Assembly: GCF_004217145.1 (NCBI RefSeq)
Contig: NZ_SHKR01000011.1
Span: 558,001-622,000 of the forward strand
Origin: Kribbella rubisoli
Lineage (GTDB): Bacteria; Actinomycetota; Actinomycetes; Propionibacteriales; Kribbellaceae
Direction of reading: 5' to 3'
Length of the DNA: 64,000 bases
In this document: piece by piece, positions 18,905 to 35,245 of the stretch
How positions within the stretch are numbered: the first letter of the stretch is position 1
How the letters are laid out: the number at the start of each line of letters is the position of its first letter
The notes under the pieces: generated by a model
Told to the model about the DNA's origin: nothing
The model's input: only the letters and a program-made list of their open reading frames with translations
The model's database searches: none
Made by a program: the position numbers and the translations under genes

Positions 18905-20398
18905 TCACGCCGCCGGCGTCATCTCCTCCGACGCCAGCTCGTCCTGTACGGCGGTCAGCTCGGCCGCCTCCTCCTCTTCGACGGCCCGGCGAGCCTTCAG
19001 CCCGCGCAGACCGGTCAGTGCGATCACCAGTCCGAGCGCCGCGATCCCCGTCACGACCCCCAGTCCGGCCTTGTACGCCGGCAGCATCCCGGCCGCCGTG
19101 GTGACACCGACCGACTGGCCGCTGATCACCGCGGTCACGATCGCCAGAACCACCGCGCCGCCGACCTGGTTCGAGGTGTTGAACAGCCCGGACGCGAGGC
19201 CCTGCTCGTGGTCCGGCACCCCGGACACCGCCTGGATGTTCAGCGACGGGAACCCGATCGCAAACCCGAGCCCGAGCAGCATGATCGTCGGGAACACCGT
19301 CGAGAAGTACGCCGACTCCGGGCCGATCCGCAGGCTCAGCGCGTACCCGGCGACGAACAGCCCCATCGCCAGAATGATCATCTTCTCGGTGCCGACCCGG
19401 TCCACGATCTTGCCGACGTTCGGCGAGAGCGTGGCGACCAGCAAGCCGGCCGGGAGGAAGCCCAGCGCGGTCTGGAACGACGACCAGCCGAGCAGGTTCT
19501 GGAAGTACATCGTGCCGATCAACTGGAAAGCGACGTACGAACCGAAGACGGTCAGGATGGCCAGGTTCGCCCGCCGCAGCGACGGGTTGCGCAGGATGCC
19601 GAGCCGGACCAGCGGGTGCTTGGTGCGCTGCTCGATCACGACGAAGCTCGTCAGCAGCACGATCGCGAGCGCGAACAGCCCGAAGGTCTGCACCGACACC
19701 CAGCCGGCGTGTTCGGCGCCGACGACGGCGTACACCAGGGACAGCATTCCGCCGGTGACGGTGACCGCACCCGGTACGTCGTACCCGCCGGCAGCGTCGT
19801 CACGCGGGCTGTTCGGGATCAGCTTGAGGCCGAACAGCAGCACGATCAGGGCGACCGGGCCGGGCATCAGGAAGGTCCAGCGCCAGCCGACCTCGGTCAG
19901 CGCGCCGCCGAGGATGAGGCCCATCGAGAAGCCGCTGGCGGCGCAGGTGGTGAAGATACTGAGGGCGCGGTTGCGATCCGGGCCCTCGTGGAAGGTCGTG
20001 GTGATGATCGAGAGCGCTGCCGGGGCCGTGAACGCCGCGGCGACACCCTTCACGAACCGCGCCGCGATGAGCAGTTCGGGGTTGCTCGCCAGCGAGCTCA
20101 GCATCGAGACGACGGCGAACACGGCCAGCGCGATCAGGAAGACGCGACGCCGGCCGAGCAGATCGGCGGTCCGCCCGCCGAGGAGCAGCAGGCCGCCGTA
20201 CCCGAGCACGTAGCCGGTCACGACCCACTGGAGAGACGAAAGGGAGACGCCCAGGTCGGCGCCGATGGACGGCAGTGACATGCCGACCATGGACACGTCC
20301 AGGCCGTCGAGGAAGATCACGCCGCAGACCACGAGGAGAGCGCCCCAGAGGCGCGCGTCCCAGGTCATGCGGGCCGGTGATGTGGTTTGCGTAGTCAC
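18905..20398 (-). CDS. MFS transporter, DHA2 (14-helix) drug exporter
   Basis: 497 aa. It has the DHA2 signatures FLDGLDVSMVGMSLPSIGADLG in helix 1, LQWVVTGYVLGYGGLLLLGGRTADLLGRRR across helices 2-3 and GAALSIITTTFHEGPDRNRALSI in the motif C region. It ends with an acidic cytoplasmic tail. GTG at 20398 has the -10 TAGTCT 6 nt upstream. It diverges from the MarR regulator at 20487 across paired palindromes, so it is probably the target of that regulator. Confidence 0.92.
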   Translation of the reverse strand: MTTQTTSPARMTWDARLWGALLVVCGVIFLDGLDVSMVGMSLPSIGADLGVSLSSLQWVVTGYVLGYGGLLLLGGRTADLLGRRRVFLIALAVFAVVSMLSSLASNPELLIAARFVKGVAAAFTAPAALSIITTTFHEGPDRNRALSIFTTCAASGFSMGLILGGALTEVGWRWTFLMPGPVALIVLLFGLKLIPNSPRDDAAGGYDVPGAVTVTGGMLSLVYAVVGAEHAGWVSVQTFGLFALAIVLLTSFVVIEQRTKHPLVRLGILRNPSLRRANLAILTVFGSYVAFQLIGTMYFQNLLGWSSFQTALGFLPAGLLVATLSPNVGKIVDRVGTEKMIILAMGLFVAGYALSLRIGPESAYFSTVFPTIMLLGLGFAIGFPSLNIQAVSGVPDHEQGLASGLFNTSNQVGGAVVLAIVTAVISGQSVGVTTAAGMLPAYKAGLGVVTGIAALGLVIALTGLRGLKARRAVEEEEAAELTAVQDELASEEMTPAA

Positions 20399-20404
20399 GA
20401 GGAG

Positions 20405-20410
20405 AGACTA
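20405..20410 (-). promoter_or_regulatory. -10 hexamer TAGTCT of the MFS gene
   Basis: TAGTCT on the minus strand is followed by 6 nt and GTG at 20398, with no Shine-Dalgarno. Confidence 0.6.
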
Positions 20411-20437
20411 TTCCATGCACATGCATCTAATGTCTAG

Positions 20438-20463
20438 GCATTAAATGCGTTTGCATTGAATGC
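20438..20463. promoter_or_regulatory. Paired palindromes between divergent MFS and MarR genes
   Basis: GCATTAAATGC (20438-20448) and GCATTGAATGC (20453-20463) are perfect odd palindromes with centres 15 bp apart. They are flanked by further ATGCAT-rich sequence (20415-20426 and 20467-20472). Likely the MarR operator. Confidence 0.75.
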
Positions 20464-20473
20464 GCGTGCATGC

Positions 20474-20479
20474 TATCGT
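20474..20479 (+). promoter_or_regulatory. -10 hexamer TATCGT of the MarR gene
   Basis: TATCGT is followed by 7 nt and ATG at 20487, and lies 10 bp beyond the palindromes. Confidence 0.6.
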
Positions 20480-20486
20480 CACCGGC

Positions 20487-20930
20487 ATGGCCGCTACGAA
20501 GGTCAGCGTTGGGACTGGTGAGACCAACGCCGATGTGCGCGAATGGCGCGAGCTCCTGGCTCGCCACGCCGACCTGACCTGTGCTCTCGACCGGGCGCTG
20601 CAGGTGGGCCACTCGCTGGGCATGAGTGAGTATGAGGTGCTCGAGCGCCTCGCCGAGCTGCCGGAGCACTCTGCGAAGGTGGCGACGATCGCCAAGTCCG
20701 TGCATCTGAGCCAGAGCGCCCTGTCCCGGGTGATCGGCCGCCTCGAGGTCGCCGGCCTGGTCGAGCGGCACATGTGCCCGGAGGATCGCCGCGCGATCAA
20801 CGTCCGGCTGACTGACGAAGGTCTGCAGCTTCAGGGCGAAGCACAGCCGACCCAGCGTCGTGTTCTCGCCGATCGCTTGCACGCACCTCTCGTGAAGAGC
20901 TGCGAGCCTCTACCCTCGACGGGTGACTGA
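20487..20930 (+). CDS. MarR-family transcriptional regulator
   Basis: 147 aa. Winged helix: MSEYEVLERLAELPEHSAKVATIAKSVHLSQSALSRVIGRLEVAGLVERHMCPEDRRAINVRLTDEG, including the DRR wing. ATG at 20487 is preferred to 20460, which lies in the operator, and because the -10 spacing fits. Cys and Met residues around the wing (RHMCPED) could sense oxidants; this is a guess. It probably represses itself, the divergent MFS exporter and the overlapping hydrolase. Confidence 0.9.
   Translation: MAATKVSVGTGETNADVREWRELLARHADLTCALDRALQVGHSLGMSEYEVLERLAELPEHSAKVATIAKSVHLSQSALSRVIGRLEVAGLVERHMCPEDRRAINVRLTDEGLQLQGEAQPTQRRVLADRLHAPLVKSCEPLPSTGD
20911..20916 (+). promoter_or_regulatory. -10 hexamer TACCCT inside the MarR 3' end
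   Basis: TACCCT is followed by 6 nt and GTG at 20923. It suggests that the hydrolase has its own leaderless promoter in addition to read-through. Confidence 0.5.
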
Positions 20931-21942
20931 GACCTTCGACGACGCCCGCGAGGTCATCGCGGACCTGCATCGCATCGTGACGCCGTCAGGCGTCCAGGAG
21001 AGCTACGAACTCACAGCCGGTGGCATCGACCACTGCGTCTACGCCCGCGGCAGGGATCGCTCGAACCCGGTCATCTTCTTCATCCACGGCGGTCCGGCCT
21101 CGCCGCTCGCCCCGGCGGCCTGGCAGTTCCAGCGGCCGGTCGAGGAGTACTTCACCGTCGTCACCTACGACCAACGCGCCGCCGGTCGCACGCTGCGCGC
21201 GGTCGACCCCGAGACGATCTCGGACACCCTCACGGTCGCGCAGTACGCCGCGGACGCGATCGAGCTCGCCGAGCAGATCAGGGATCGGTACGGCGTCGAG
21301 AAGCTGATCCTGCTCGGGCACAGCTGGGGCAGCATCGTCGCCCTGCAGGCCGCGCTGACCCGCCCCGATCTCTTCTACGCGTACGTCGGGATCGGCCAGA
21401 TCGTCGACGGCCACGCCAACGAGGGCCTGTGTTTCGAGTACGCAATGCAGCAGGCCCGCGCGCACAATCACACCGAAGCGCTCGAGCAGCTCGCGTCGAT
21501 CGCGCCGTACCCCGGTGACGAGCCGGTGACCCGCGAGCGGATCATCATCGCCCGGCAGTGGGCGCAGTACCGCGGCGGCCTGTCGGCGTACCGCGAGGAC
21601 TCGCTGTACTACTTCCAGGCGCCGCTGCTGTCACCGGAGTACACGGTCGAGGAGACCGAGACGATTGGCGAGGGCAACGAATTCACGTTGGGCCGCGTGC
21701 TGGACGAGATGCTCACGGTCGACTACACCGGGGTGACGGAGTTCCCGATCCCGGTGCTGATGTTCTTCGGACGGCACGACTACACGACGCCGACGAAGCC
21801 GGTGGAGGCCTGGCTCGAGGCGGTCGAAGCGCCTTATAAACAAGCGGTTTGGTTCGAGCACTCGGCACATCTCGCGCCGTGGGAGGAGCCGGGCAAGTTC
21901 CTGATCAGCCTGGTCGACCACGTTCGTCAGTTGAGCGTGTAG
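20923..21942 (+). CDS. Alpha/beta hydrolase, proline-iminopeptidase-like
   Basis: 339 aa. Oxyanion region FFIHGGPASPLAP, second loop TYDQRAAGRT, nucleophile elbow GHSWGS, catalytic Asp in FFGRHDYTTP and His in EHSAHLAPWEEP. The HGGP and DQRGxG-like pattern places it near proline iminopeptidases. The GTG overlaps the MarR end by 8 nt. The 3' end overlaps ilvA antisense by 16 nt. Confidence 0.9.
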   Translation: MTETFDDAREVIADLHRIVTPSGVQESYELTAGGIDHCVYARGRDRSNPVIFFIHGGPASPLAPAAWQFQRPVEEYFTVVTYDQRAAGRTLRAVDPETISDTLTVAQYAADAIELAEQIRDRYGVEKLILLGHSWGSIVALQAALTRPDLFYAYVGIGQIVDGHANEGLCFEYAMQQARAHNHTEALEQLASIAPYPGDEPVTRERIIIARQWAQYRGGLSAYREDSLYYFQAPLLSPEYTVEETETIGEGNEFTLGRVLDEMLTVDYTGVTEFPIPVLMFFGRHDYTTPTKPVEAWLEAVEAPYKQAVWFEHSAHLAPWEEPGKFLISLVDHVRQLSV

Positions 21943-23129
21943 CTGTAGCCGTTGGCAACGAGTCCGGCGAGGACGCGTTCGCGATGGTCCTCGCCGCGGA
22001 GCTCGAGCTGCAGGGCGACCTCGACCTCCTCGAGACTCAGTGTCTCGGAGATCCGCTCGTGCAGGATCTCGATGATGTTCGCGTCCAGCGCGGCGAGCTG
22101 GTTCAGCAACGTGGCCAGTCCACCGGGTGTGTCCGGGATCCGCACCCGCAGCGACAGGTACCGCCCGGCCGCCGCCATACCGTGCCGGATCACTCGCATC
22201 AGCAGCAGCGGATCGATATTTCCGCCGGACAGTACGACGACGACCGGCGGCTTGAACCGTTTCGGCGCGTCGAGTACGGCGGCAACCGCGGCGGCGCCGG
22301 CCGGTTCGACCACGAGCTTCGCACGCTCGAGGACGAGTAAGAGGGCCTTGGACAACGAATCCTCGTCGACGGTCCGCACCTCGCCGACGTACGCCTGCAC
22401 CGCCTCGAACGGCACCTTCCCCGGCAGCCCGACGGCGATCCCGTCCGCCATCGTCGCCATCTGCTCCAGTTGCACCGGCTCCCCCGCCTCGAGCGACGCC
22501 GGGTACGCCGCGGCCCCGGCCGCCTGTACGCCGACAACCTCGATCGGCATCCCGTCGCGCTGCATCGCGGCCGAGATCCCGGCCAGCAACCCGCCGCCAC
22601 CGGTCGGTACGACGACGGTCCGCACCTGTGGGCACTGCTCGACGATCTCGAGCCCCGCGGTCGCCTGACCGGCCACGATGTCGGGATGGTCGAACGGATG
22701 GATCAGCACCGCACCCGTCTCGGCCGCGAACGCGCGCGCCGCGATCAGGCAGTCGTCGATCGACGTGCCGACGAAGCGGATCTCCGCGCCGTACGCCCGG
22801 GTCGCCTTCTCCTTCGGGATCGGCGCGCCGTGCGGCATGAAGACGGTCGACCTGATGCCGAGCAACTGCGCGGCGAGCGCGACGCCCTGCGCATGGTTGC
22901 CGGCGCTGGCCGCGACCACGCCCCGGCTGCGCTCGGCTTTCGACAGGCGGGCCATCCGCACGTACGCGCCGCGCAGCTTGAATGATCCGGTCCGCTGGAG
23001 GTTCTCGCACTTGAGGAACACGTCGCCGCCGACGAGTTCGCTCAACCACCGCGAGTACTCCAACGGCGTCGGCGCCACCACGTCGTGCAACAGATCGGCC
23101 GCCCGCGCAATGTCCCTGGCATCGATCAC
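21927..23129 (-). CDS. ilvA: Threonine ammonia-lyase
   Basis: 400 aa. It deaminates threonine to 2-oxobutanoate, the first step to isoleucine. The PLP lysine lies in RTGSFKLRGAY, the phosphate-binding Gly loop is VPTGGGGLLAG, and the cofactor-ring region is VVLSGGNIDP. A C-terminal ACT-like domain (about 325-400, LRVRIPDTPGGLATLLNQLA) makes it the short-ACT form, not the long two-ACT enterobacterial form. GTG at 23129 has the -10 TAAAGT 6 nt upstream (23136-23141). Confidence 0.95.
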   Translation of the reverse strand: MIDARDIARAADLLHDVVAPTPLEYSRWLSELVGGDVFLKCENLQRTGSFKLRGAYVRMARLSKAERSRGVVAASAGNHAQGVALAAQLLGIRSTVFMPHGAPIPKEKATRAYGAEIRFVGTSIDDCLIAARAFAAETGAVLIHPFDHPDIVAGQATAGLEIVEQCPQVRTVVVPTGGGGLLAGISAAMQRDGMPIEVVGVQAAGAAAYPASLEAGEPVQLEQMATMADGIAVGLPGKVPFEAVQAYVGEVRTVDEDSLSKALLLVLERAKLVVEPAGAAAVAAVLDAPKRFKPPVVVVLSGGNIDPLLLMRVIRHGMAAAGRYLSLRVRIPDTPGGLATLLNQLAALDANIIEILHERISETLSLEEVEVALQLELRGEDHRERVLAGLVANGYSYTLN

Positions 23130-23172: not shown

Positions 23173-24324
23173 ATGAGAGTCACGGTTGTCGGCGTGTCCG
23201 AGGTGCCCCAAGAGATCGAGGTGCCGGACGGGACCCAGTTCCTCAACGTCGAGCCGGCAATCCGCGCGTTGCGGGACCAAGGCATCGGCACCGCCGTACT
23301 GACGTGTCTGTCCGAGGAGCCGCTCACCTATCAGGTGCTGCCCTCTGATGGCTTCGTCAGCTCGGACCTGGCGCCGTGGACAAAGCCCGAGTGGTACGAC
23401 GAGGCGCTGCCATGGATCGCTGAGCAGGTAGAGGCGACCGGTCCGTGGACGCAGGTCCGCTCGTGGGGTCTGTCGAACGTCCTTCGCATCCCGACAATCG
23501 ACGGTGATGTCTACTTCAAAGCAATCGCTCACTCCACCACGATCAAGCCGACCCGCCCGGACCCACTGCCTCTCCTGTTCGCGCACGAGCCCTTGTTCCT
23601 GCAGAAGGCCTCCGAGGACCACCCCGGCGGCGTCCCGGCGCCACTCGCCATCGACTCGCAGCGAGCTTGGATGCTGCTGCCCGACCTCGGCACACCACTG
23701 GCCGCCGAGACCGACGTCGACGTGTGGATCGACTTCGTACGCCGTCATGCGCGCCTGCAGCGCAGCTATGTGAATCACCCTGAACGCCTGCTGGAAATGA
23801 CCTGCGCCGACCGCCGCCTCGCCGTACTCGACGCCGAACTGGAGCGCGTACTCGGCCCCACCCCGGCAACCGAGCGGCTCGAACCGCACGAACGAGCCCG
23901 GCTGCCTATCCGCGCCAAACAGTTGCGTGAGGCAATCACCGAGCTGTCGTCGATCGGCCTCCCCGAAACCCTGCTCCACGGCGACCTGCACCCCGGCAAC
24001 GTGGCAGTCCGGGACGGTCAGGTGCTGGCCTTCGACTGGACGGACGCATCCTGGTCGCACCCGTTCCTCGACCTGGTGACGTTCATCGAGGAGGAGCGCT
24101 CACCGCTGTCGGCGGACCCGCGGGTCCTGGACGCGTACCTGAGCGAGTGGGAGGAGTACGCGACCCCCACAGACCTACGCCACGCCCTCGACCTCGCCAC
24201 ACAACTGGGCGCCCTCCACCAAACCATGACCTACGCCCACCTCCTCGACCACGTAACCGGCCCCAGCAAAGCCTCGATGCTCCGAGGCGGCGTGTGGTGG
24301 CTACGCCAACTCCTCAAGCCGTAA
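23173..24324 (+). CDS. APH-family phosphotransferase with extended N-terminus
   Basis: 383 aa. The C-terminal kinase half has LLHGDLHPGNVAV (Brenner motif) and LAFDWTDASWSHPFLDL (metal-binding D). The first 80 residues form a separate region with WTKPEWYDEALPWI, as in a group of uncharacterised actinobacterial APH-like proteins. The substrate is unknown. It sits alone between ilvA and the HExxH cluster, with its own leaderless promoter. Confidence 0.83.
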   Translation: MRVTVVGVSEVPQEIEVPDGTQFLNVEPAIRALRDQGIGTAVLTCLSEEPLTYQVLPSDGFVSSDLAPWTKPEWYDEALPWIAEQVEATGPWTQVRSWGLSNVLRIPTIDGDVYFKAIAHSTTIKPTRPDPLPLLFAHEPLFLQKASEDHPGGVPAPLAIDSQRAWMLLPDLGTPLAAETDVDVWIDFVRRHARLQRSYVNHPERLLEMTCADRRLAVLDAELERVLGPTPATERLEPHERARLPIRAKQLREAITELSSIGLPETLLHGDLHPGNVAVRDGQVLAFDWTDASWSHPFLDLVTFIEEERSPLSADPRVLDAYLSEWEEYATPTDLRHALDLATQLGALHQTMTYAHLLDHVTGPSKASMLRGGVWWLRQLLKP

Positions 24325-24341
24325 CCAGGGCGCGGCACCGG

Positions 24342-25109
24342 TCAGCGGTGGAGGATTGCCAGTTGGTTGCGCATCCCGCGGCGTACGGGTGGGTCCAGGT
24401 GGCGATCCCAGTCGGGTCTGCGTTCGCCTCGTAGGAGGGCGTAGTACGCGAGCGCCTCGGCCAATGCTGCCTCGCGCAAATACCCGCGGGCGACCGGCTG
24501 CTTGCCCCGCCCGTTGGGTCGCGGACGACGTTCGTACGCCGCGTTGGCGGTGAAGATCCCGAGCCCGTAGAAGACGGTGATGAGGTCGGTGAGCGGCTCA
24601 TGGTCAGGTCGGCGCGTGAGCGTGATCCGGTCGCCGCCGAGCAGCAGTTCGTGCCCGACCTCGTGCGCGTAGATTGCGATCAGCGCGACCGGATCGGCGG
24701 CCAGCGCGGGTGACAGTTCGATCTGGTTCTGGTCGGCACCGCGGCTCCATCGACCGTGCTGTTCCTTCACCACGGCAGTCGTCCCGCGGTTCGACGGGCG
24801 ACGTACGCCATTCAGTTCGAAGCTCAGCCCACACTGCCCAGGCCGCAGATCCATCCACCCATCAACCCGACCGCACAGCTCGGTCGCCGCGGCCCGGCTC
24901 CCGTCGTACCCGTCCGGAATGACATCGGCCGGCAGCGCGATCGGCCGAAGCAGGACATCCCGGCCGAACTCCGCGACCAACCAGTCCATCGACGACCGGA
25001 TCCAGCGGCGACTACCACCAGGCAGCCGTTCCCGCGGCGCCTTCAGTTGGGACCTTACTTGCTGGCTTCGTCGCATCATCCCGATCGGATTCCTCACCCG
25101 CCGGATCAT
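24342..25109 (-). CDS. HExxH putative metalloprotease, short paralogue (A)
   Basis: 255 aa, the last of three tandem paralogues. The conserved N-terminal part has LPGGSRRWIRSSMDWLVAEFG, IPDGYDGSRAAATELC and LSFELNGVR. The zinc-type motif HEVGHE spans 149-154, followed by EPLTDLITVFYGLGIFTANAA and ALAEALAYY. Compared with its neighbours it lacks about 70-100 residues before the HExxH, so it may be a pared-down or regulatory version. No signal peptide or membrane helix. I do not recognise a named family. Confidence 0.75.
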   Translation of the reverse strand: MIRRVRNPIGMMRRSQQVRSQLKAPRERLPGGSRRWIRSSMDWLVAEFGRDVLLRPIALPADVIPDGYDGSRAAATELCGRVDGWMDLRPGQCGLSFELNGVRRPSNRGTTAVVKEQHGRWSRGADQNQIELSPALAADPVALIAIYAHEVGHELLLGGDRITLTRRPDHEPLTDLITVFYGLGIFTANAAYERRPRPNGRGKQPVARGYLREAALAEALAYYALLRGERRPDWDRHLDPPVRRGMRNQLAILHR

Positions 25110-25165
25110 GCCTGCCCGGCGTCACGCCAAACCTTCCGGGGTCGTTCCGTCACCGTCGGTTGACA

Positions 25166-26245
25166 TCAGCCCAGCGGAGCACCCTCTTGGATCGACGCGA
25201 TCTCGGCGTCCTTCACCATCGCCGCGAGCCGCGCGAACGTACGCATCCGCACCGACCGGTCGAGCTCCGTCGGCATCACCGGCAGGATCGACACCGGCCA
25301 CAACTCATGTCGCCGCAAGCAGTACGCCGCCAGCGCCTCCGACGCCCCGCGCTCCCCCAGATACCCGAGCGTCTGCAGCGCCGAACGCCGACCGGGCACC
25401 CGCTCGACCGCCTGGTTCGCGAGGAAGATCCCGAACCCGTGGAAGATCGCGAACAGATCGGTCACCGCCTCATCATCCGGCCGCTGCCGGTCGATCAGGT
25501 GATACCCCCACAGCACCTCGTGCCCGAGCTCGTGAGCCGTCGCAGCCACCACCGCAGACGGGTCCGCGAGTACGTCGGCCGACAGCATCACCGCAGTACC
25601 GTCGAGGTCGCCGCTGCGCAGGTCCAGCCAGCAGGCGCGCGATCCGCTGCCCGGCGGCTTCGACCAGACAGCCTCGGCTCGGTCGCACAAAGCGGCCCGC
25701 CGATCGAGGTCGGTCTCCTGGACGATCGCCGTACTGCGGTTCAGCTCGGCCTGCAGCTCCCGCTCGGCAAGCACACCGATCTCGGGCGCAAAACCCGCGG
25801 CAGCGAGGGCATCGACCTCGGCCGGCGTCATTGTTGCCCGCAGCCCCGACACCGCCACGATGTTCGCGCGCTGCTCCGCCCGAAGACGGTGAACGGCCGC
25901 GCTGCGGGCGGCGGCGCGGACCTCGTCCATCCGGAAGCTGAAGCGGATCCGGTCGTCGGGCACCTCCAGCCAGGCGCAGACCTTCAGGCAGAGCTCACGG
26001 GCCGCACGCTCCGAACCGTCGTACCCGCGGGGCACGAACTCGCTCGGCAGCACCGGCGGACGACGCAGCGGCTCGACCCCGAACCGTTCGGTCAACCAGT
26101 CCAACGTGTCTTCGATCCATTGTTCGGGTCCCCCAGGCAGCATGACCTTCGGCCCATAAATGAGCCCCCGGTCCCGTTGCCGGCGCCGCCACGCACCGAT
26201 CAGATTCATACCGAACTGACGCGACCCGACGGCTGCCCGTTCCAT
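25166..26245 (-). CDS. HExxH putative metalloprotease paralogue (B)
   Basis: 359 aa. Same plan as its neighbours: LPGGPEQWIEDTLDWLTERFG (about 36-56), PRGYDGSERAARELC (72-86), IRFSFRMDEVR (100-110), a helical middle (about 110-195), HELGHE at 238-243, then DEAVTDLFAIFHGFGIFLANQAVE and GYLGERGASEALAAYCLRR. The acidic residue in (D/E)(E/P)xTDL is a candidate third metal ligand. Cytoplasmic by appearance. There is a 19-bp gap to gene C and 56 bp to gene A. Confidence 0.77.
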   Translation of the reverse strand: MERAAVGSRQFGMNLIGAWRRRQRDRGLIYGPKVMLPGGPEQWIEDTLDWLTERFGVEPLRRPPVLPSEFVPRGYDGSERAARELCLKVCAWLEVPDDRIRFSFRMDEVRAAARSAAVHRLRAEQRANIVAVSGLRATMTPAEVDALAAAGFAPEIGVLAERELQAELNRSTAIVQETDLDRRAALCDRAEAVWSKPPGSGSRACWLDLRSGDLDGTAVMLSADVLADPSAVVAATAHELGHEVLWGYHLIDRQRPDDEAVTDLFAIFHGFGIFLANQAVERVPGRRSALQTLGYLGERGASEALAAYCLRRHELWPVSILPVMPTELDRSVRMRTFARLAAMVKDAEIASIQEGAPLG

Positions 26246-26264
26246 CGCGACTATTGCGGCTGGA

Positions 26265-27410
26265 TCACCACCCGAGGACGGAGGGCGGACCTCCGATCAA
26301 CTCGTCGAGCCGGGCCGTGAAGCGCTCACGTGGCTCGGGATCGAGGGCAGAGTGCCAGGCCGGCACGAGCGGACCGTCCCGCAGCAGCCGATGCTGCCGG
26401 AAGCGGTACGCCGCGAGCGCCTCCGCGACGGCCGTTTCGCCGAGGTATCCGAACGTCTCCACAGTCGGCGTCCCGAGCGTGGTCTCGTCGAGCGCGGCGT
26501 TGGCGTGTGCAATGCCGAAGCCGTGCAGCACCGCGAAAAGGTCAGTCAGCGGCTCCCGCAGTACGCCGGTCGCACCTGGCACGTCAGACGGCATCAGGAC
26601 CTGATGACCGAGCTCATGCGACGCAGCGGCCATCAGAACAGCCGGATCCGCGAGTACGTCGGAACCCAGCATCACCGCGGTGTGTCCGGGCAGAAGCTCG
26701 ACCCCGGGCAGGCAGTAGGTCAGATCGGTCCATCGGCCAGCCGACGACGATTCCAGGCCTGCCGCCTCGGGGTCCGGCCGATCCGGCCGCTGCAGCAGCT
26801 CGGCTCGCCGCACCGGGTCAGGCTCGGCCGCGATCTCCCGGCAGCGAACCAGCTCGGTGAGGAAGTCGAGGAACGCAAACCGCTGGATCTCTGGCAGCAG
26901 CCCGACATCGACGCCGTCAAGCTCATCCGGCACAGCGTCGCCGACACGGCACTCCACCAGCAGCTCTGCGAGCCGATCACTCGGCGCGGCGCCCAGGACG
27001 CGTGAGTGCTTCCGCACGGCAGCGATGTCCGCCGGATCCGCACCGCGGAAGGCCGGCAGGCTCTGGGCGACGAAGGCATCGGCGAGCGTTGCCCCCAGCA
27101 ACTGACCCGCTTCGACCACCTTCTCCAACCGGAAGCTGAACCGGATCCGCCCCGACGGGATCCCCATCCGCTCGGCCACCAGCAGGCACAACTCCCGAGC
27201 TGCCGCCTCCGAGCCGTCGAACCCAGCCGGCACGAACTCGCCCGGCACGACCGCAGACCGGCGCAGCGGCTCGGTCCCGAAGTGGTCGATCAGCAACCGC
27301 AACGAATCGTCGACCCATTGCCGTGCCCCGCCCGGCAACTCGACCTTCGGCGCCCGCACGAGATCGCTGAAGGACATGTCCATGCCCTCTGCGACGTCAG
27401 CCAGCAGCAT
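26265..27410 (-). CDS. HExxH putative metalloprotease paralogue (C)
   Basis: 381 aa, the longest copy. LPGGARQWVDDSLRLLIDHFG (25-45), PAGFDGSEAAARELC (61-75), IRFSFRLEKV (89-98), a long helical insert (about 100-225), HELGHQ at 265-270, REPLTDLFAVLHGFGIAHANAAL and GYLGETAVAEALAAYRFR. ATG at 27410 follows the ABC permease stop by 11 nt, so it is co-transcribed with the exporter. A start at 27383 or 27377 is possible, since the similarity to B begins only at about residue 20. Confidence 0.77.
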   Translation of the reverse strand: MLLADVAEGMDMSFSDLVRAPKVELPGGARQWVDDSLRLLIDHFGTEPLRRSAVVPGEFVPAGFDGSEAAARELCLLVAERMGIPSGRIRFSFRLEKVVEAGQLLGATLADAFVAQSLPAFRGADPADIAAVRKHSRVLGAAPSDRLAELLVECRVGDAVPDELDGVDVGLLPEIQRFAFLDFLTELVRCREIAAEPDPVRRAELLQRPDRPDPEAAGLESSSAGRWTDLTYCLPGVELLPGHTAVMLGSDVLADPAVLMAAASHELGHQVLMPSDVPGATGVLREPLTDLFAVLHGFGIAHANAALDETTLGTPTVETFGYLGETAVAEALAAYRFRQHRLLRDGPLVPAWHSALDPEPRERFTARLDELIGGPPSVLGW

Positions 27411-27421
27411 CGCGGTTCCAG

Positions 27422-28225
27422 CTACTTGAGGAGGAGTTTGCCGAGGCGGCGGGAAGCGACGTACATGCCGAGGGTTCCCATGACAGCCAAGTAGAGGGCG
27501 TGGACGACGAGGAACCAGTCAACGGTGCCGGTGGTGAACGCGCGCTCGAGCACGACACCTTGGTAGAGCGGGGTGATCTCGACGAGCCAGCGGATCACGC
27601 CCGGATATGTCTCGACCGGGTAGAAGGTGGCCGAGAACAGGAACATCGGCATGATCGCGAGCTGCACGAACTCGAAGTCCTGCCAGCTGCGCATGAACGT
27701 GGTCAGCGCCATCCCCGCACCAGCGAACGCGAACCCGATCAGCACCGAGGCCGGTAGCGCGAGCAGCGCCCACCACGACGAGATCAGGCCCATGACCAGC
27801 ATGACCAGGACGAACATCGCCGAGTAGATCGCCCCGCGCAACAGCGCCCAGGTGATCTCGCCGGTCGCCACGTCCCACGGCCGCAACGGCGTCGCGAGCA
27901 TCGAGTCGTACAGCTTGGCGTACTTCATCCGGAAGAAGATGTTGTACGTCGAGTCGAAGATCGCGCCGTTCATCGCCGAGCTGGCCAGCATCGCCGGCGC
28001 GACGAATGCGGCGTACGCGATCTTGGTGCCGTCGGACAAGGTGAAGTCCCCGACGAGGTGAGCGACGCCGATGCCGATCGAGAGCAGGTAGAACACCGGC
28101 TCGAAGAACCCGGACAGGAACACGACCCACGATCGCCTGTAGAGCAGGAAGTTCCGCTCGACGATGTGTCGGCCACCACCGAGCCGAACCGGAACCGGGA
28201 CAACCCGGGCAGCGATAGTTGCCAT
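27422..28225 (-). CDS. ABC-2 type transporter permease, NodJ-like (second)
   Basis: 267 aa with six membrane helices. It has the NodJ/DrrB-like segments ERNFLLYRRSWVVFLSGFFEPVFYLLSIGIG and MAIMPMFLFSATFYPVETYPG-like positions near helix 5. Its ATG overlaps the stop of the upstream permease (TGATG), so the two are translated together and probably form a heterodimer. It runs directly into the HExxH genes. Confidence 0.9.
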   Translation of the reverse strand: MATIAARVVPVPVRLGGGRHIVERNFLLYRRSWVVFLSGFFEPVFYLLSIGIGVAHLVGDFTLSDGTKIAYAAFVAPAMLASSAMNGAIFDSTYNIFFRMKYAKLYDSMLATPLRPWDVATGEITWALLRGAIYSAMFVLVMLVMGLISSWWALLALPASVLIGFAFAGAGMALTTFMRSWQDFEFVQLAIMPMFLFSATFYPVETYPGVIRWLVEITPLYQGVVLERAFTTGTVDWFLVVHALYLAVMGTLGMYVASRRLGKLLLK

Positions 28226-29007
28226 CAGCGGATCAACTTTCGGGTGAAGCCGCGGACGGCGAGCCAGGTGCCGGCGATGAACCAGGCCAGCAGGTAGACG
28301 ACGTTGACCAGCGCCAGCCATGGGTTCACCGTGCCGAGGCTCAGGTTGCGGCACAGGTCGACCCCATGCCACAGCGGACTCACGTACGCGAGCCACTCGA
28401 TCCAGTTGGGCAGCTGGGAGACCGGGAAGAACGCACCGGAGAACAGGAACGCCGGGACCACGCCGAAGCGGAAGACCATCGCGAAGCCCGAGTCGTTCTC
28501 CAAGGTCGTCGCGTACGCCGCGATCGGGCCGGCGACCGCCATCCCGACGAGCAGCGCGACCGGCAGACCGAGGATCCCGAGCGGCGACTTCAACCCGCCG
28601 AACAACGCGATGATGACCAGGAACACCGCACACGAGCTCAGCACCCGGAACGCGATGAACGCCAACTGCCCGTAGACCACGTCCGCAGGCCGCAGCGGCG
28701 TCGCGATCATCGAGTGGAAGAACTTCTGCCATTTCAGCCCGGACATCACCGGGTACGTCGACTCGCCGACCGCGATCTGCAACGCCGTCGAGGCGAGCAA
28801 CCCGGGCGCGATGAACTGCAGATAGCTGACCCCGCCGAGCGCGCCCGTTCCGTTGCTGTCGACGAACGAGCCGAGCCCGATCCCCATCGCGGCCAGGTAG
28901 AGCATCGGCAGCAGGAAGCTGCTGATCATCGTGCCCTTCCAGGTCCGCTTGTAGACGGTCAGCCAGTAGTCGAACATCCGGCGACCGTTCTCGAGGGCGA
29001 CGGTCAT
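28225..29007 (-). CDS. ABC-2 type transporter permease (first)
   Basis: 260 aa, six membrane helices, beginning with an amphipathic N-terminus (FDYWLTVYKRTWKGTMISSFLLPMLYLAAMGIGLG). Conserved FSGAFFPVSQLP precedes the last helices. It is homologous to the next permease but distinct. It lies 118 bp after the ATPase, a gap that holds no gene. Confidence 0.9.
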   Translation of the reverse strand: MTVALENGRRMFDYWLTVYKRTWKGTMISSFLLPMLYLAAMGIGLGSFVDSNGTGALGGVSYLQFIAPGLLASTALQIAVGESTYPVMSGLKWQKFFHSMIATPLRPADVVYGQLAFIAFRVLSSCAVFLVIIALFGGLKSPLGILGLPVALLVGMAVAGPIAAYATTLENDSGFAMVFRFGVVPAFLFSGAFFPVSQLPNWIEWLAYVSPLWHGVDLCRNLSLGTVNPWLALVNVVYLLAWFIAGTWLAVRGFTRKLIR

Positions 29008-29125
29008 AGGGCCTCCCGGTCTGGACTGGGGAGCGCAGGGAGCGCAGCGACCGGAGCGACGAGGGAAGGCCGGGAATCACAGCCCCATGACCCGCCGCGA
29101 CGGAGTCGCGGCATCAGTAGCGCCA

Positions 29126-30073
29126 TCAGTCCACCAACGTCCGGCCGGTGAGGCGCAGGAACACGTCCTCCAGCGTCGAGCGGCGGACGAGAACAGCAGC
29201 CGGTTGCAGACCGCGCTCGTGCACGGCGGCGACGGCGCGCTCACCGTCGTCGGTGTAGAGCAGCAGGCGGTCCGGCAGCACTTCGATGCGCTGGGCAAGG
29301 TCCTCGACCTTGCCGGCCAGGGCGTCGTGGTCGGCCAGCATCACGTCAGGACCGAACCGAAGCTCGGTCACCTCGCGCGTCGAATAGTCGCGGATCAGGT
29401 CGGACGGCGAACCCTCGGCCGCGATCAGTCCACCGTCCATCACCACGAGCCGGTCGCACAGCTGCTCGGCCTCGTCCATGTAGTGGGTGGTGATGATCAA
29501 CGTGACGCCGGCCTGCTTGAGCCGGAACAGCTTGTCCCACAACAGGTGCCGCGCTTGCGGGTCGAGGCCGGTGGTCGGCTCGTCCAGGAGGAGCAGGTCG
29601 GGCTTGCTGACCAGGGAGCGGGCGATCGTCAGCCGGCGCTTCATCCCGCCGGAGAGCTCGTCGACCTTGACCTTCGCCTTCTCGGTCAGCGCGACGAACT
29701 CGAGCAGCTCGTCGGCCCGCTCGCGGCACTCGGCGCGGCTGAGACCGAAGTACCGGCCGTAGATCGTGAGGTTCTCCCGGACTGTCAGCTCGGTGTCGAG
29801 GGTGTCGTCCTGCGGGCAGACCCCCAGCCGGGCGCGGATCGCCGGGCCGTCGGTGGCCGGGTCGAGGCCGAGGATGCGCAGGGTGCCGCCACTGGTCGGG
29901 GAAACCGCGCCGATCATCCGCATCGTCGACGACTTGCCCGCGCCGTTCGGCCCGAGGAACCCGAAGGCCTCGCCGCGCCACACGTCCAGGTCGATCCCGC
30001 GAACCGCTTCGAAGTCGCCGTACGACTTCCGCAGCTCGCGGACATGGACCAAGGACTCCCGCTGCTCACTCAC
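29126..30073 (-). CDS. ABC transporter ATP-binding protein, NodI/DrrA-like
   Basis: 315 aa. Walker A GPNGAGKSS, signature LSGGMKRRLTIA, Walker B LLLLDEPTTGLD, switch His in TTHYMDEA; C-terminal domain ends RSTLEDVFLRLTGR. GTG at 30073 is chosen because TAGTGT lies 7 nt upstream and a start at 30139 would overlap the divergent gene. This is the head of a likely six-gene run: ATPase, two permeases, then HExxH genes C, B and A. Confidence 0.92.
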   Translation of the reverse strand: MSEQRESLVHVRELRKSYGDFEAVRGIDLDVWRGEAFGFLGPNGAGKSSTMRMIGAVSPTSGGTLRILGLDPATDGPAIRARLGVCPQDDTLDTELTVRENLTIYGRYFGLSRAECRERADELLEFVALTEKAKVKVDELSGGMKRRLTIARSLVSKPDLLLLDEPTTGLDPQARHLLWDKLFRLKQAGVTLIITTHYMDEAEQLCDRLVVMDGGLIAAEGSPSDLIRDYSTREVTELRFGPDVMLADHDALAGKVEDLAQRIEVLPDRLLLYTDDGERAVAAVHERGLQPAAVLVRRSTLEDVFLRLTGRTLVD

Positions 30074-30080
30074 CTGCTCG

Positions 30081-30086
30081 ACACTA
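30081..30086 (-). promoter_or_regulatory. -10 hexamer TAGTGT of the ABC/HExxH operon
   Basis: TAGTGT on the minus strand, then 7 nt, then GTG at 30073; it supports that start. Confidence 0.55.
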
Positions 30087-30128
30087 GACGCACCTCCGGA
30101 CAGTTTCTTCTCGTTTTGGGCAGGCGGG

Positions 30129-30518
30129 ATGGCATTCACTGTTGACGATCTTCAGCGGCTGAGCGATCTGACGGTCAGCGCCTGGCAGGACAGTCTCGAC
30201 CGGGACTGGTCGGCCCCGGCCGGCAACCTGAGCTGGACCTGTCTGCGGACGGCGGACCACACCGTGGACACCGTGCTCGCCCCGGCGATCTTCCTGGCTT
30301 CGCGGAGGCTCGACGACTATCCGTCGTACGGCATCAGCACACCCGGCCCGGACGCTGCTCCCGCGGTGTTCGTCGAGGCCTTGCAGACCGCGACAAGGAT
30401 CCTGATCGCGGTGGTCGGCGACGCCACCTCGGATGTCCGAGCAGTGCTCTGGCGACGGCCACGCGTCGAGCCCCGGGGACCTCAGGCCGCTAGGGCGGCT
30501 CGAACCCGCCGGGCCTGA
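30129..30518 (+). pseudogene. Truncated mycothiol-dependent maleylpyruvate isomerase/DinB-like gene
   Basis: 129 aa. The N-terminal part (FTVDDLQRLSDLTVSAWQDSLDRDW, LSWTCLRTADHTVDTVLAP) is a DinB-like four-helix bundle with the expected metal-site His. Typical relatives continue past DVRAVLWRRPRVEPRGPQ into an aaRgalElilHahDV-like helix, but here the frame turns into Arg/Ala-rich sequence and stops exactly where the convergent SDR gene ends. I infer loss of the 3' third. A functional short form is possible but less likely. Confidence 0.62.
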
Positions 30519-32017: not shown

Positions 32018-32232
32018 CGACCCAGCCTCCCGGCGGGCGCAGCGCTCGGACCAGGGTGCTGGACCGACCTCCGAAGGGGATCCAGCACTACCTCGCGTCA
32101 CAAACACCCCCTTCCGCCGTCGAAAGAGTGAAGGACCCACGTCCTTCGCTGCGGACAGTAACCATCCGGCAACCGAGCGCAAATAAGTGGCGGCTCACTT
32201 GAACATCTTGGAAACTCATTTGCGTGTATCAC

Positions 32233-32252
32233 GCAAGCATGTATATGCTTGC
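32233..32252. promoter_or_regulatory. Perfect 20-bp palindromic operator at the MarR/MFS promoter
   Basis: GCAAGCAT-GTAT-ATGCTTGC, ending 3 nt before the MarR ATG at 32256. It contains the -10 TATGCT (32244-32249) of a leaderless transcript, so binding would directly block polymerase and a transcript starting at the ATG. Confidence 0.85.
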
Positions 32253-32255
32253 AGC

Positions 32256-32855
32256 ATGCAAGTAAACGACGCGTACTCTCCGCAGACCCCCATCGAGGGC
32301 GTCATGCACGCGTTCACCCGGATCGGACGCCGGCTCAAGGCCAAGCAGCCCGGTGACACGATCGACCACAGCGCGCACGTCGTGCTGTTCGCACTGCGGT
32401 GCAACGGTGCACTGCGCCTGTCCGACCTCGCCGGGCGACTCGAGCTCGACGCTTCGACCACCAGCCGGCACATCCGGTCCCTGGAGCAGCTGGGCCTGGT
32501 CCGCCGCTCCCCCGACCCCGACGACGGCCGCGCCTTCCGGGTCGAGCTGACCGACGAGGGCATCGAGCAGTGGGAAGCCAGCGCCCGTCACCGGATGGAG
32601 CTGCTGAGCGCCGCGATGGAGGGCTGGTCCGAGGAGGACGTGCAGACCTTCGAGCGGCTGATGACCCGCTTCGCGGACGGCGTCGCCGCCCGGACCGAAG
32701 CACCCTCCAGCGCCGCCTGGGCCGAGAAGGGGTGGGCCGCCGTGGCCCCGAGACCTTCCCCCCGGGCAGAGCGCAGTACAGACCAAGACTTCGCGGCCAG
32801 CGGCGACCCCGCAACCCGTGAGAACACCGACAAGAACCTGGAGAGCACCAAATGA
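32256..32855 (+). CDS. MarR-family regulator of the adjacent MFS exporter
   Basis: 199 aa. Winged helix LRLSDLAGRLELDASTTSRHIRSLEQLGLVRRSPDPDDGRAFRVELTDEG. The C-terminal 45 residues are a hydrophilic tail rich in Arg, Glu and Thr beyond the usual MarR length of about 150. ATG at 32256 follows the operator; an upstream in-frame start at 32187 is unlikely. It overlaps the exporter by ATGA. Confidence 0.92.
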   Translation: MQVNDAYSPQTPIEGVMHAFTRIGRRLKAKQPGDTIDHSAHVVLFALRCNGALRLSDLAGRLELDASTTSRHIRSLEQLGLVRRSPDPDDGRAFRVELTDEGIEQWEASARHRMELLSAAMEGWSEEDVQTFERLMTRFADGVAARTEAPSSAAWAEKGWAAVAPRPSPRAERSTDQDFAASGDPATRENTDKNLESTK

Positions 32856-34465
32856 GCACCACAGAGCCTGCCACCGCCGGCGGCGCTGCGCCTGATAGCG
32901 GTCCTAGCTACCTGTCCCACAAGCAGATCCTGGTGATTCTCGGCGGCCTGATGGCCGGGATGTTCCTGGCCGCGCTCGACCAGAGCATCGTGGGTACGGC
33001 GCTGCCGCGTATCGTCAGCGACTTCAACAGCCTCGACAAGTTGTCCTGGGTGGTCACGGCGTACCTGCTGACCTCGACCGCCTCGACCCCCTTGTGGGGA
33101 AAGATCTCCGACCTCTACGGCCGCCGCCCGCTGTTCATCGCGGCGATCGTCACCTTCCTCGGCGGCTCGGTGCTGTCCGCGCTGTCGCAGAACATCGAGC
33201 AGCTGATCGGCTTCCGCGCCGTCCAGGGTCTGGGCGCCGGCGGTCTGATGTCCCTCGCGTTCGCCACCATCGGCGACGTGATCCCGCCGCGCGAGCGCGG
33301 TAAGTACATGGGGTACTTCGGTGCCGTCTTCGGCCTGTCCTCGGTGGCCGGCCCGCTGCTCGGCGGTCTGCTCACCGACGGTCCCGGCTGGCGCTGGATC
33401 TTCTGGATCAACGTCCCGATCGGTCTCGTTGCCCTGGGCATCGTTGCCGCCGTACTCCGGCTGCCGCACGTGAGGCGCTCGCACAAGATCGACTACCTCG
33501 GCGCATCCACCGTCGCCGCGGCCGTCACCTCGTTGCTGCTCGCCGTCTCCTGGAGCGGTCCGAGCAACGGCTGGGGCAACGCGACCACGCTGGCCCTGCT
33601 GATCGGCTCCGTCGTACTTGCCGTCGCGTTCGTCTTCATCGAGCTGCGGGTGGCCGAGCCGATCATCCCGATGGACCTGTTCAAGGGCCGGATCTTCTCC
33701 GGGTACGCCGGATACGCGTTCCTGCTGGGCTTCGCGATGTTCGGTGCGCTGATCTTCCTGCCGCTGTACCTGCAGGCCGTCAAGGACCTGTCGCCGACCC
33801 GCTCCGGCCTGGCGTTGCTGCCGATGATCGTCGGTATCTTCTCCGCGTCGATCCCGAGCGGCCAGATGATGAGCAAGAGCGGGCGGTACAAGCACTTCCC
33901 GATCATCTCCGCGGTCCTGGTCAGCGGCGCGATGGTGCTGCTGTCCACGCTGAGCCTGACCACGCCGTACTGGCAGCTGGCGATCTACATGTTCGTGATG
34001 GGCGCCGGTCTGGGTCTGTCGATGCAGATCACCGTCACCGCCGCGCAGAACAGCGTGCCCCGGCAGCACATGGGCACGGCGACCTCGACGATGACCTTCT
34101 TCCGCTCGATGGGTGGCGCGATCGGTACGGCGGTCTACGGAGCCGTACTGACCACCCGGCTGAAGACCCACCTGTCCGACATCGTTCCGAACGCCACGCA
34201 GTCGATGGTCGACGGACTGGCCAAGGCCGCCAACAGCGTCCAGGCACTGCACGGGCTGAAGGAGCCGCTGAAGGGCTTCGCACTGCACGGGCTCGTCGAC
34301 GCGATGGACGACGTCTTCCTGGTCTCGCTGCCGTTCCTGGCGATCGCGCTGATCCTGGCGATCATCACCCCGGAGCAGCGGCTGGCCGGCCGTCACGACG
34401 GCCCGAAGGCCGAAGGCGAGACGGAGGACTCGTTGGAGTCCTCCGCAGCCGCCGCAATGCACTGA
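32852..34465 (+). CDS. MFS transporter, DHA2 (EmrB/QacA-like) drug exporter
   Basis: 537 aa with 14 predicted helices. Motif D1 MFLAALDQSIVGTALPRIVSDF, motif A GKISDLYGRRPLF and motif C FGLSSVAGPLLGGLLTD. It probably exports drugs by proton antiport. It is translationally coupled to the MarR gene upstream and ended by a terminator at 34517. Confidence 0.93.
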   Translation: MSTTEPATAGGAAPDSGPSYLSHKQILVILGGLMAGMFLAALDQSIVGTALPRIVSDFNSLDKLSWVVTAYLLTSTASTPLWGKISDLYGRRPLFIAAIVTFLGGSVLSALSQNIEQLIGFRAVQGLGAGGLMSLAFATIGDVIPPRERGKYMGYFGAVFGLSSVAGPLLGGLLTDGPGWRWIFWINVPIGLVALGIVAAVLRLPHVRRSHKIDYLGASTVAAAVTSLLLAVSWSGPSNGWGNATTLALLIGSVVLAVAFVFIELRVAEPIIPMDLFKGRIFSGYAGYAFLLGFAMFGALIFLPLYLQAVKDLSPTRSGLALLPMIVGIFSASIPSGQMMSKSGRYKHFPIISAVLVSGAMVLLSTLSLTTPYWQLAIYMFVMGAGLGLSMQITVTAAQNSVPRQHMGTATSTMTFFRSMGGAIGTAVYGAVLTTRLKTHLSDIVPNATQSMVDGLAKAANSVQALHGLKEPLKGFALHGLVDAMDDVFLVSLPFLAIALILAIITPEQRLAGRHDGPKAEGETEDSLESSAAAAMH

Positions 34466-34651: not shown

Positions 34652-35245
34652 ATGAAGACTCTTGACCGGCCGTTGGACGACGACGACCGCGCGATGGCGG
34701 ACCTCGCCGAGGTCCGCGACTGGCGACGGCTCGGCGGACCGCAGTCGGGCGGTACCGGGCCGGACCCGGTGCGCCGCCTGATCCGCAGGGTCAAGTCCGC
34801 GACCAACTGGAAGCCGTGGCCGATCACCCGCAGGACCGTGATCGACGACCAGCTGGACGGTTGGGGTTTCCTGACCCGCCGCAAGACCGAGCTCGCCGTG
34901 TACGACGACCAGGTGTTGCCGCACAGCCCGTTCAGCGGCTGGGTCGCGTTCGCGATCGAGCGCACCGACATCGACGCGGCGATCGCCGGACTCGACGAAC
35001 ACTGGCCGGCGAAGTTCGACCTCGCCTGCCGGCACTGGGGACAACCGGCGTACGTCGGAATCGACAGCAAGACCGGATTCGTCGACGACTGGTCACCAGG
35101 CGCCGGCGCCGACCGTCGCCACCTCGCCGTGTGGACGCCGCCCGGTGCAGAGATCCACCTGTACAGCAACAAGCCGACACCGCGCCCCTTGTCGGTATCG
35201 GTCGGAATCAACTACACGGTCTACCTCACCGAGGAGGGGACATGA
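34652..35245 (+). CDS. Unrecognised conserved protein, module copy 1
   Basis: 197 aa, soluble, no signal peptide. One of three paralogues sharing MKTxDRxLDxDDxAxADxA, a W-x-PWP core (about 53-56), WGFxTxR, SGW-x-A (about 94-98), AGLDxHW, GxPxYxGxD, WxPGAGxxRRHLAxW and a terminal VGxxYxVY. The alternating polar/hydrophobic C-terminal half suggests a beta-sheet domain. I do not recognise a family; a chaperone or immunity-like role is only a guess. It overlaps its downstream partner by ATGA. Confidence 0.75.
   Translation: MKTLDRPLDDDDRAMADLAEVRDWRRLGGPQSGGTGPDPVRRLIRRVKSATNWKPWPITRRTVIDDQLDGWGFLTRRKTELAVYDDQVLPHSPFSGWVAFAIERTDIDAAIAGLDEHWPAKFDLACRHWGQPAYVGIDSKTGFVDDWSPGAGADRRHLAVWTPPGAEIHLYSNKPTPRPLSVSVGINYTVYLTEEGT

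Follow-up and report, generated by a model that had tools for sequence, protein, structure and literature searches.

The three tandem HExxH genes (Z1, Z2 and Z3) that follow an ABC-2 exporter in Kribbella rubisoli most likely encode zinc-dependent peptidases of an unnamed, sporadic family of cytosolic gluzincin-like metalloproteins, duplicated beside an exporter that is independent of them. We put the probability of this reading, which draws on sequence comparison and predicted models, at roughly 0.6. The genes lie within a window of 64,000 nucleotides (contig NZ_SHKR01000011.1, positions 558,001 to 622,000).

Results

Z1, Z2 and Z3 come after the genes for an ABC-2 ATPase and permeases 1 and 2, all six on the minus strand (Table 1). 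The same-strand layout of six genes described in the initial annotation is correct and its gap values are exact (118 bp, overlap, 11, 19 and 56 bp). The ATPase and both permeases match ABC_tran (PF00005) and ABC2_membrane (PF01061), respectively, above cut-off, which identifies an ABC-2 exporter. It is of the same ATPase plus two-permease type as NodIJ and DrrAB, but stays below the cut-off of every named NodI, DrrA, NodJ and DrrB model in NCBIfam, the best ATPase matches being NodI and DrrA. By eye, an in-frame alternative GTG start of the ATPase at 30073, the one used in the initial annotation, is possible. In the synteny analysis the PALP-family gene often occurs next to Z3, on the side away from the exporter. 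No inverted repeats (≥14 within 60 bases) were found. A scan of positions 24200–30500 for promoters and terminators gave none and is uninformative on transcription; the six genes may be transcribed jointly.

Table 1. Genes of the exporter/HExxH locus and its flank.
Feature	Coordinates	Strand	Characteristics
ABC-2 exporter ATPase, NodI/DrrA-like	29126..30139	-	PF00005 E 8e-32
ABC-2 permease 1	28225..29007	-	PF01061 E 7e-17
ABC-2 permease 2	27422..28225	-	PF01061 E 2e-19; present in 38/38 Kribbella genomes
Z1, long HExxH paralogue, 381 aa	26265..27410	-	HELGHQ + E286xxTD290
Z2, long HExxH paralogue, 359 aa	25166..26245	-	HELGHE + E259xxTD263; predicted four-helix insert, ~residues 106-195
Z3, short (ancestral-type) HExxH protein, 255 aa	24342..25109	-	HEVGHE (H149 E150 H153) + E171xxTD175, N189, Y210
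APH-type phosphotransferase gene	23173..24324	+	PF01636; synteny
PALP-family (threonine-dehydratase-like) gene	21927..23129	-	PF00291; synteny

Pairwise comparison bears out the proposal of three HExxH paralogues and places their relationship far beyond chance: the identity of Z1 and Z2 (381 and 359 aa) is 39% across 357 aligned columns (E 5e-60), and Z2 and Z3 (359 and 255 aa) align in two main stretches, the better of which has an E value of 8e-23. The second motif ascribed to them is indeed present in all three, but as ExxTD throughout (E286, E259, E171) and not with a choice of Glu or Asp at its first position. Median pairwise dN/dS values of 0.31 (Z1), 0.20 (Z2) and 0.15 (Z3) fit constrained coding genes. 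Judged by Kyte–Doolittle hydropathy, neither a signal peptide nor a membrane helix is suggested in Z1–Z3, as the largest 19-residue means are only 1.38–1.52 and residues 1–45 show no hydrophobic character. This agrees with the earlier view that signal peptides are missing, and the proteins are probably cytosolic.

All 38 Kribbella genomes retain the exporter, as represented by permease 2, and 32 contain the family. In 21 of the 38 an HExxH gene is located directly behind the exporter, in the same orientation and within 170 bp of permease 2; in eight, other genes separate the two, with an APH-type phosphotransferase gene between exporter and Z3 in five of these. Six genomes have the exporter in the same neighbourhood without any HExxH gene, and the rest comprise one locus at a contig end, one genome with only a remote paralogue and one with remnants. 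Long copies (Z1 and/or Z2) occupy the space behind the permeases in 17 of the 38 genomes.

Outside Kribbella, neither permease was matched at E ≤ 1e-5 at any of the 59 family loci, several of which end at contig ends, and 29 exporter loci of other genera gave no Z match within flanks of up to 1.5 kb. At two Acidobacteriota family loci an MsbA-type exporter, unrelated to these permeases, lies immediately upstream. Among the close co-directional neighbours of the family outside Kribbella (n = 37) no Pfam family is shared by more than two, and apart from the family itself no neighbour cluster, as defined with a simple gene caller of our own, covers more than 6 of the 59 loci. One cluster of six loci consists of antisense ORFs of the family gene. 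Linkage of the kind that marks an exporter-linked maturation peptidase is thus found in 21 of 38 Kribbella genomes and at none of the 59 loci elsewhere, and the exporter/HExxH unit of the initial annotation does not hold as a general one. Judged by these permeases, the 59 loci are the exporter-free homologues that the initial annotation itself had named as refuting it. Since exporter and HExxH genes occur apart elsewhere, their association is probably a local feature and not an essential one.

Small ORFs of at least 20 aa were listed for the ATPase–permease gap and for the region upstream of the ATPase. The sole candidate in the gap (29004–29126, 40 aa) could not be accommodated in 27 of 28 relatives, whose gap measures 2–17 bp, and a gene for a small precursor peptide, which the initial annotation had proposed to look for nearby, is not evident in these regions. 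Upstream of the ATPase, an SDR gene is situated within 164 bp in 14 of 28 relatives; 0.6–3 kb lie between in the other 14.

These data bear on the possibility, put forward in the initial annotation, that in the species that have the trio it is functionally coupled to the exporter and would act as cytosolic peptidases, trimming a peptide or protein ahead of its export or in the course of it. The close same-strand arrangement in 21 genomes, purifying selection on Z1, Z2 and Z3 and the position of the two Acidobacteriota homologues directly behind an exporter speak for such a coupling. We nevertheless consider it unlikely in view of the six genomes that keep the exporter without the family, the intervening genes in eight others, the mutual absence at the 59 and 29 loci outside the genus, and the precursor search.

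The long pair Z1 and Z2 forms a clade with support of 100/99, and on a tree built without the insert columns the insert is a single change. In 57 of the 59 non-Kribbella members (the 57 with recovered frames) the HExxH motif lies no further along than residue 148. According to this tree the short form is the ancestral one, and Z1 and Z2 share one gained helical insert. The loss of about 100 residues previously ascribed to the smallest copy, Z3, is rejected on the basis of the tree and the early HExxH motif; its direction has to be reversed.

Family homologues were found in seven bacterial phyla. A total of 124 loci were confirmed and 80 kept, 21 of these from Kribbella; several of the 80 end at contig ends, where absence of a neighbour is only partly assessable. 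In the phylum samples, the family occurs in 3 of 246 and 2 of 296 genomes with the K. rubisoli genome counted in both, frequencies which are approximate because only the top eight first-look candidates per genome were scored. For Z1–Z3, every Pfam and NCBIfam model stays below its cut-off, in line with the initial impression that they stand outside any named family, and a literature search turned up no paper on the family, although one may exist. The family is thus best read as unnamed and sporadically distributed. Among plasmids Z3 matched a single record, whose annotation reads hypothetical protein (31.5% identity, E 1e-11); a second family member had no match among phages. The defence system search (PADLOC) returned weak matches only, capP in 7 of 42 members (best E 0.0091).

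Seven residues (H149, E150, H153, E171, D175, N189 and Y210 in Z3 numbering) are invariant in 139 of 140 alignment rows, a count in which at least 19 rows are repeats and from which members L096 and L145 were left out, their full frame not being recovered. The one deviating row is a truncated copy, in which just the first His and Glu are retained. The gluzincin motif, HExxH with a downstream Glu in ExxxD, is present in the same proportion of rows, and the invariant Glu of ExxxD is a plausible candidate for the third metal ligand which the original zinc-site proposal called for.

Below cut-off, Pfam matches among 42 members are mostly to metallopeptidases: SprT-like (15), M78 (9), M50B (7) and M48 (4). 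None of the following models matches the trio or reaches its threshold: SprT-like PF10263 (gathering score 25.6 bits; best E 0.0003; two singly scored members at 15.4 and 18.5 bits), M78/IrrE-ImmA PF06114 (best E 0.0078), M48 PF01435 (gathering score 20.3 bits; best E 0.062; two singly scored members at 12.9 and 13.3 bits) and TIGR04267, the commonest NCBIfam match (18 of 42 members; best E 0.00022; cut-off 40 bits, maximum 18.4 bits among 10 members scanned singly, which do not include the member with the best E value). The family profile gave a best E value of only 0.0093 against PDB sequences, with snake-venom metzincins and not gluzincins in the top rows.

The predicted models are confident for both Z3 (pLDDT 91.3, pTM 0.88) and Z2 (pLDDT 90.6, pTM 0.88). 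Foldseek found no match to the PDB at E ≤ 0.001 for either; the best row for Z3 was MATCAP (E 0.13), and for Z2 the two best rows were unrelated proteins, followed by ZMPSTE24 (E 0.98). A viral fold library likewise gave no match at E ≤ 0.001, the best (0.015) being an SprT-like protein. When Foldseek's matches were realigned with VIA-align, 47 of the 50 rows listed for Z3 were zincin peptidases by title, about 30 of them ACE/ACE2; the other three (3o0y, 6d2s and 7a03) could not be placed by title. The top structures for Z3 were 6mdw, which like 6mdx we take to be SPRTN (Z 7.1, rmsd 3.6, 122 aligned), selecase 4qhi (Z 6.7, rmsd 3.0, 101 aligned), ZMPSTE24 6bh8 (Z 6.6, rmsd 5.5, 138 aligned) and proabylysin 4jiu (Z 6.2, rmsd 3.1, 98 aligned). 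PprI reached Z 4.8, and MATCAP and M32 carboxypeptidases Z 4.8–5.8 at rmsd 4.2–7.2. For Z2 we obtained Ste24p (Z 7.2, rmsd 9.0), selecase (7.0, 2.8) and the putative zinc peptidase 3c37, presumably M48-like (6.4, 3.8). The predicted Z3 fold thus resembles that of zincins, at Z values of only 5–7, a range which the tool terms a possible common arrangement.

Discussion

Two other functions have to be weighed against a family of gluzincin-like peptidases. SprT and SPRTN have a His as third metal ligand. The family might cut or sense intracellular proteins in stress or repair by self-regulated proteolysis, like SPRTN/Wss1/SprT or IrrE/PprI, as the best fold rows of Z3, the sub-cut-off SprT-like and M78 matches and the TPR or HEAT extensions of five members, which suggest protein partners, could indicate. 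This appears improbable: the third His ligand of SprT is absent, the only invariant His residues being those of HExxH, and the candidate ligand is a Glu; a Pfam scan of the trio gave no DNA- or ubiquitin-binding parts as in SprT/SPRTN/Wss1; and outside Kribbella no partner gene recurs beside the family genes. Very improbable is an iron/2-oxoglutarate enzyme on a zincin fold, not a peptidase, like the aKG-HExxH peptide beta-hydroxylases of RiPP pathways (TIGR04267), for although TIGR04267 leads the sub-cut-off NCBIfam matches in frequency, the HExxH helix is common to both and the ChlB HExxH domain (8s5f) matches Z2 at Z 3.3, six of the 10 singly scanned members match TIGR04267 at just 9.4–18.4 bits over 26–64 residues round that helix, the Z2 scores of Ste24p and selecase are roughly double that of 8s5f, and the 10 neighbouring genes scanned with Pfam include no radical SAM or RiPP gene. 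Passages of PMC12636437 and PMC12257519 searched for a third ligand of these enzymes did not reveal one.

Two groups of gluzincin peptidases invite comparison. Selecase combines HExxH with a downstream Glu, and M48 peptidases have HExxH and ExxxD. The minigluzincins (selecase, proabylysin and jannalysin) are small soluble proteins with a single-domain zincin core, much as is predicted for the family, and match the Z3 model at Z 6.1–6.7 over about 100 residues at 3.0–3.1 Å. However, they have about 105 residues as compared with mostly 230–265 in the family, share 8–15% identity with it, lack its extra N-terminal helices and N189/Y210 signature, and gave no sequence match in the family-profile search of PDB sequences. 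M48 peptidases (Ste24p/ZMPSTE24 and 3c37) match the predicted models at Z 6.4–7.2, but the family differs in its weak PF01435 matches and in that membrane helices are not suggested.

In the proposed gluzincin-like peptidase, a single zinc ion would be held by both HExxH histidines together with the Glu of ExxxD further downstream, and the Glu of HExxH would activate water. The Asp of ExxxD may brace one of the metal-binding His, and oxyanion stabilisation may fall to the invariant Tyr (Y210). As to the neighbourhood, Z3 in Kribbella is found close to the PALP-family gene, with an opposite-strand gene between it and the ABC-2 exporter in some species; longer copies with the new helical insert (Z1 and/or Z2) may then have come to fill the space behind the permeases. 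A bolder version, which we regard as rather unlikely, has cross-phylum cytosolic mini-gluzincin peptidases (HExxH-ExxxD-N-Y) duplicated in part of Kribbella, given a helical lid and recruited to the position following an old ABC-2 exporter, where they would process its cargo or regulate the transporter itself.

Because exporter and HExxH genes part company in other genomes, the locus advises caution against inferring function from adjacency in a single genome. What emerges is a conserved, probably catalytic family in at least seven bacterial phyla, whose trio in K. rubisoli has no Pfam or NCBIfam model above cut-off. With fixed candidate active-site residues, confident models and small soluble proteins, the family is a well-defined target, and it offers natural variants with and without the helical insert.

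Gene arrangement in the window

As proposed in the initial annotation, the genes for an ATPase and two permeases are followed on the minus strand by three paralogous genes for HExxH proteins, which we refer to as Z1, Z2 and Z3. The first three encode ordinary ABC-2 components according to Pfam; NodIJ and DrrAB are the nearest models, yet the exporter scores below their cut-offs. Z1 and Z2 share 39% identity (E 5e-60), and Z2 matches Z3 in two stretches flanking an insert (E 8e-23). Genome searches revealed no copy in K. rubisoli beyond these three.

Features of the region (positions in the window)
Feature	Position	Strand	Remark
MarR–MFS pair	18905–20930		
APH-type phosphotransferase gene	23173–24324	+	
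Z3	24342–25109	-	255 aa, behind Z2
Z2	25166–26245	-	359 aa, behind Z1
Z1	26265–27410	-	381 aa, behind permease 2
ABC-2 permease 2	27422–28225	-	Pfam
ABC-2 permease 1	28225–29007	-	Pfam
ATG ORF	29004–29126	-	40 aa, spans the ATPase–permease 1 gap
ABC-2 ATPase	29126–30139	-	Pfam
MarR–MFS pair	32187–34465		MFS named by eye
Tandem paralogues	34652–35245, 35615–36196	+	49% identity, E 2e-73

The 40-residue ORF is probably not a gene, because the gap it spans is absent in 27 of 28 relatives. MarR–MFS pairs flank the region on both sides, and the neighbourhood is therefore rich in efflux-type genes. The tandem paralogues had no Pfam match at 1e-4.

Conserved residues, distribution and predicted structure

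No Pfam or NCBIfam model reached its cut-off with Z1, Z2 or Z3. For 42 members the best matches were SprT-like (E 0.0003), TIGR04267 (E 0.00022) and capP of PADLOC (E 0.0091); those members that were scored singly stayed below the cut-offs. A 12-row profile scan of 84,980 species gave 260 pattern matches, of which 124 were confirmed and 80 loci kept: 21 from Kribbella (including one record that bears the label Streptomyces sp. SID13031 but whose contig belongs to one of the Kribbella genomes) and 59 from other Actinomycetota, Acidobacteriota, Planctomycetota, Verrucomicrobiota, Bacteroidota, Spirochaetota and Armatimonadota. Among six longer members scanned, C-terminal protein-interaction repeats were found in five, TPR in four (L107, L130, L146, L153; L-numbers denote loci of relatives) and HEAT in one (L151).

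An ExxTD motif follows HExxH by 16–17 residues in Z1, Z2 and Z3 alike; its Glu is fixed, and the alternative Asp once read at this position was not found. Both His and the Glu of HExxH, E171, D175, N189 and Y210 (Z3 numbering) are conserved in 139 of 140 rows (78 tree and 62 family rows, at least 19 repeating the same protein), and the one row that departs is a truncated copy, which stops after the first His and Glu. In 63 of 64 family rows HExxH and ExxxD lie 12–16 residues apart; Bacteroidota have the shortest spacing. This is the classical gluzincin arrangement.

The AlphaFold2 model of Z3 (42-row alignment) has a pLDDT of 91.3 and a pTM of 0.88. A Foldseek search of the PDB gave nothing at E ≤ 0.001, the leading rows being MATCAP, ZMPSTE24 and a carboxypeptidase. 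VIA-align, applied to rows drawn from that list, gave Z scores of 7.1 for 6mdw (which we take to be SPRTN), 6.7 for selecase, 6.6 for ZMPSTE24 and 6.2 for proabylysin; its other rows included MATCAP (5.8), BlaR1 (5.6), two metallocarboxypeptidases (5.5), ACE (5.1) and PprI (4.8). Judged by title, zincin peptidases account for 47 of 50 rows, and ACE or ACE2 for about 30. Each score is modest and could reflect a common arrangement alone; the agreement among the rows is nevertheless more than one weak match. The Z2 model (pLDDT 90.6) gave 7.2 for Ste24p, 7.0 for selecase and 6.4 for the putative zinc peptidase 3c37, unrelated proteins turning up below about 4; Foldseek by itself ranked two unrelated proteins first for this model. 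Against a gluzincin count the weak top rows of a sequence profile search of the PDB, which are snake-venom metzincins (E 0.0093). We infer that the family most likely acts like a small cytosolic gluzincin peptidase.

Origin and maintenance of the long copies

A tree built from 78 proteins groups the long copies (the Z1 and Z2 types) in a single clade (support 100/99) nested among short Kribbella copies. The clade was retained (SH-aLRT 99; one change at the fewest) when the alignment was restricted to columns with at least 60% occupancy, which leaves out the insert; its exact sister group is unsure, as the tree program flagged long-branch joins. The short form is ancestral, because HExxH starts no later than residue 148 in all of the members outside the genus with frames recovered (57 of 59). 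Together with the tree, this reverses the earlier idea that the smallest copy had lost about 100 residues. The insert of Z2 is confidently modelled as four helices (about residues 106–195). One relative, L050, has a single 503-residue long-form copy (3893–5404, minus strand) with a larger insert and without Z3.

Median pairwise dN/dS values, computed for expected-length copies from L036–L049 and the window, were 0.31 for Z1 (66 pairs), 0.20 for Z2 (105) and 0.15 for Z3 (91). All three genes are maintained, Z1 being the most relaxed.

Linkage to the exporter

Permease 2 is present in all 38 Kribbella genomes and the Z family in 32. The predicted exporter linkage held in 21 of the 38 (K. rubisoli and 20 others), where a Z gene immediately follows permease 2 in the same orientation, at most 170 bp away, but it failed outside the genus: none of the 59 loci had a match to permease 1 or 2, and six had other ATPases only (27–33% identity). 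At least one gene separates exporter and Z gene in eight Kribbella genomes, in five of them an APH-type phosphotransferase gene on the opposite strand. The remainder comprise one genome in which a contig end cuts the locus, one with a remote paralogue only, one with remnants and six without Z genes, in which the exporter keeps the same neighbourhood. At least one long copy occurs in 17 of the 38 genomes and the Z1–Z2–Z3 set in 12 (K. rubisoli, L037–L044 and L046–L048), in L047 apart from the exporter. Z3 of L037 (4398–5143, minus strand) is split over reading frames, suggesting either a pseudogene or a sequencing error. Six genomes (L065–L070) carry a separate short-type paralogue with no exporter match within 14 kb.

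Outside the genus, Z genes have close co-directional neighbours upstream in 24 of 55 cases and downstream in 13 of 58; no Pfam family recurs in more than two of these 37. Conversely, 29 loci of other genera with exporter homologues had no Z match within flanks of up to 1.5 kb. In two Acidobacteriota loci a Z-family gene stands directly behind an MsbA-type ABC exporter, with a 1-base overlap (L111, 4300–7175) or 114 bp away (L152, 5823–8792), an adjacency separate from the Kribbella case.

Because of these counts within and outside Kribbella, the exporter is kept independently of its link to the Z genes, which is probably a local feature of part of the genus. A functional tie is possible in the Kribbella species that show the link. 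What was most striking in the initial proposal, a dedicated exporter operon, does not generalise; what remains is a clean, unnamed family of predicted enzymes.
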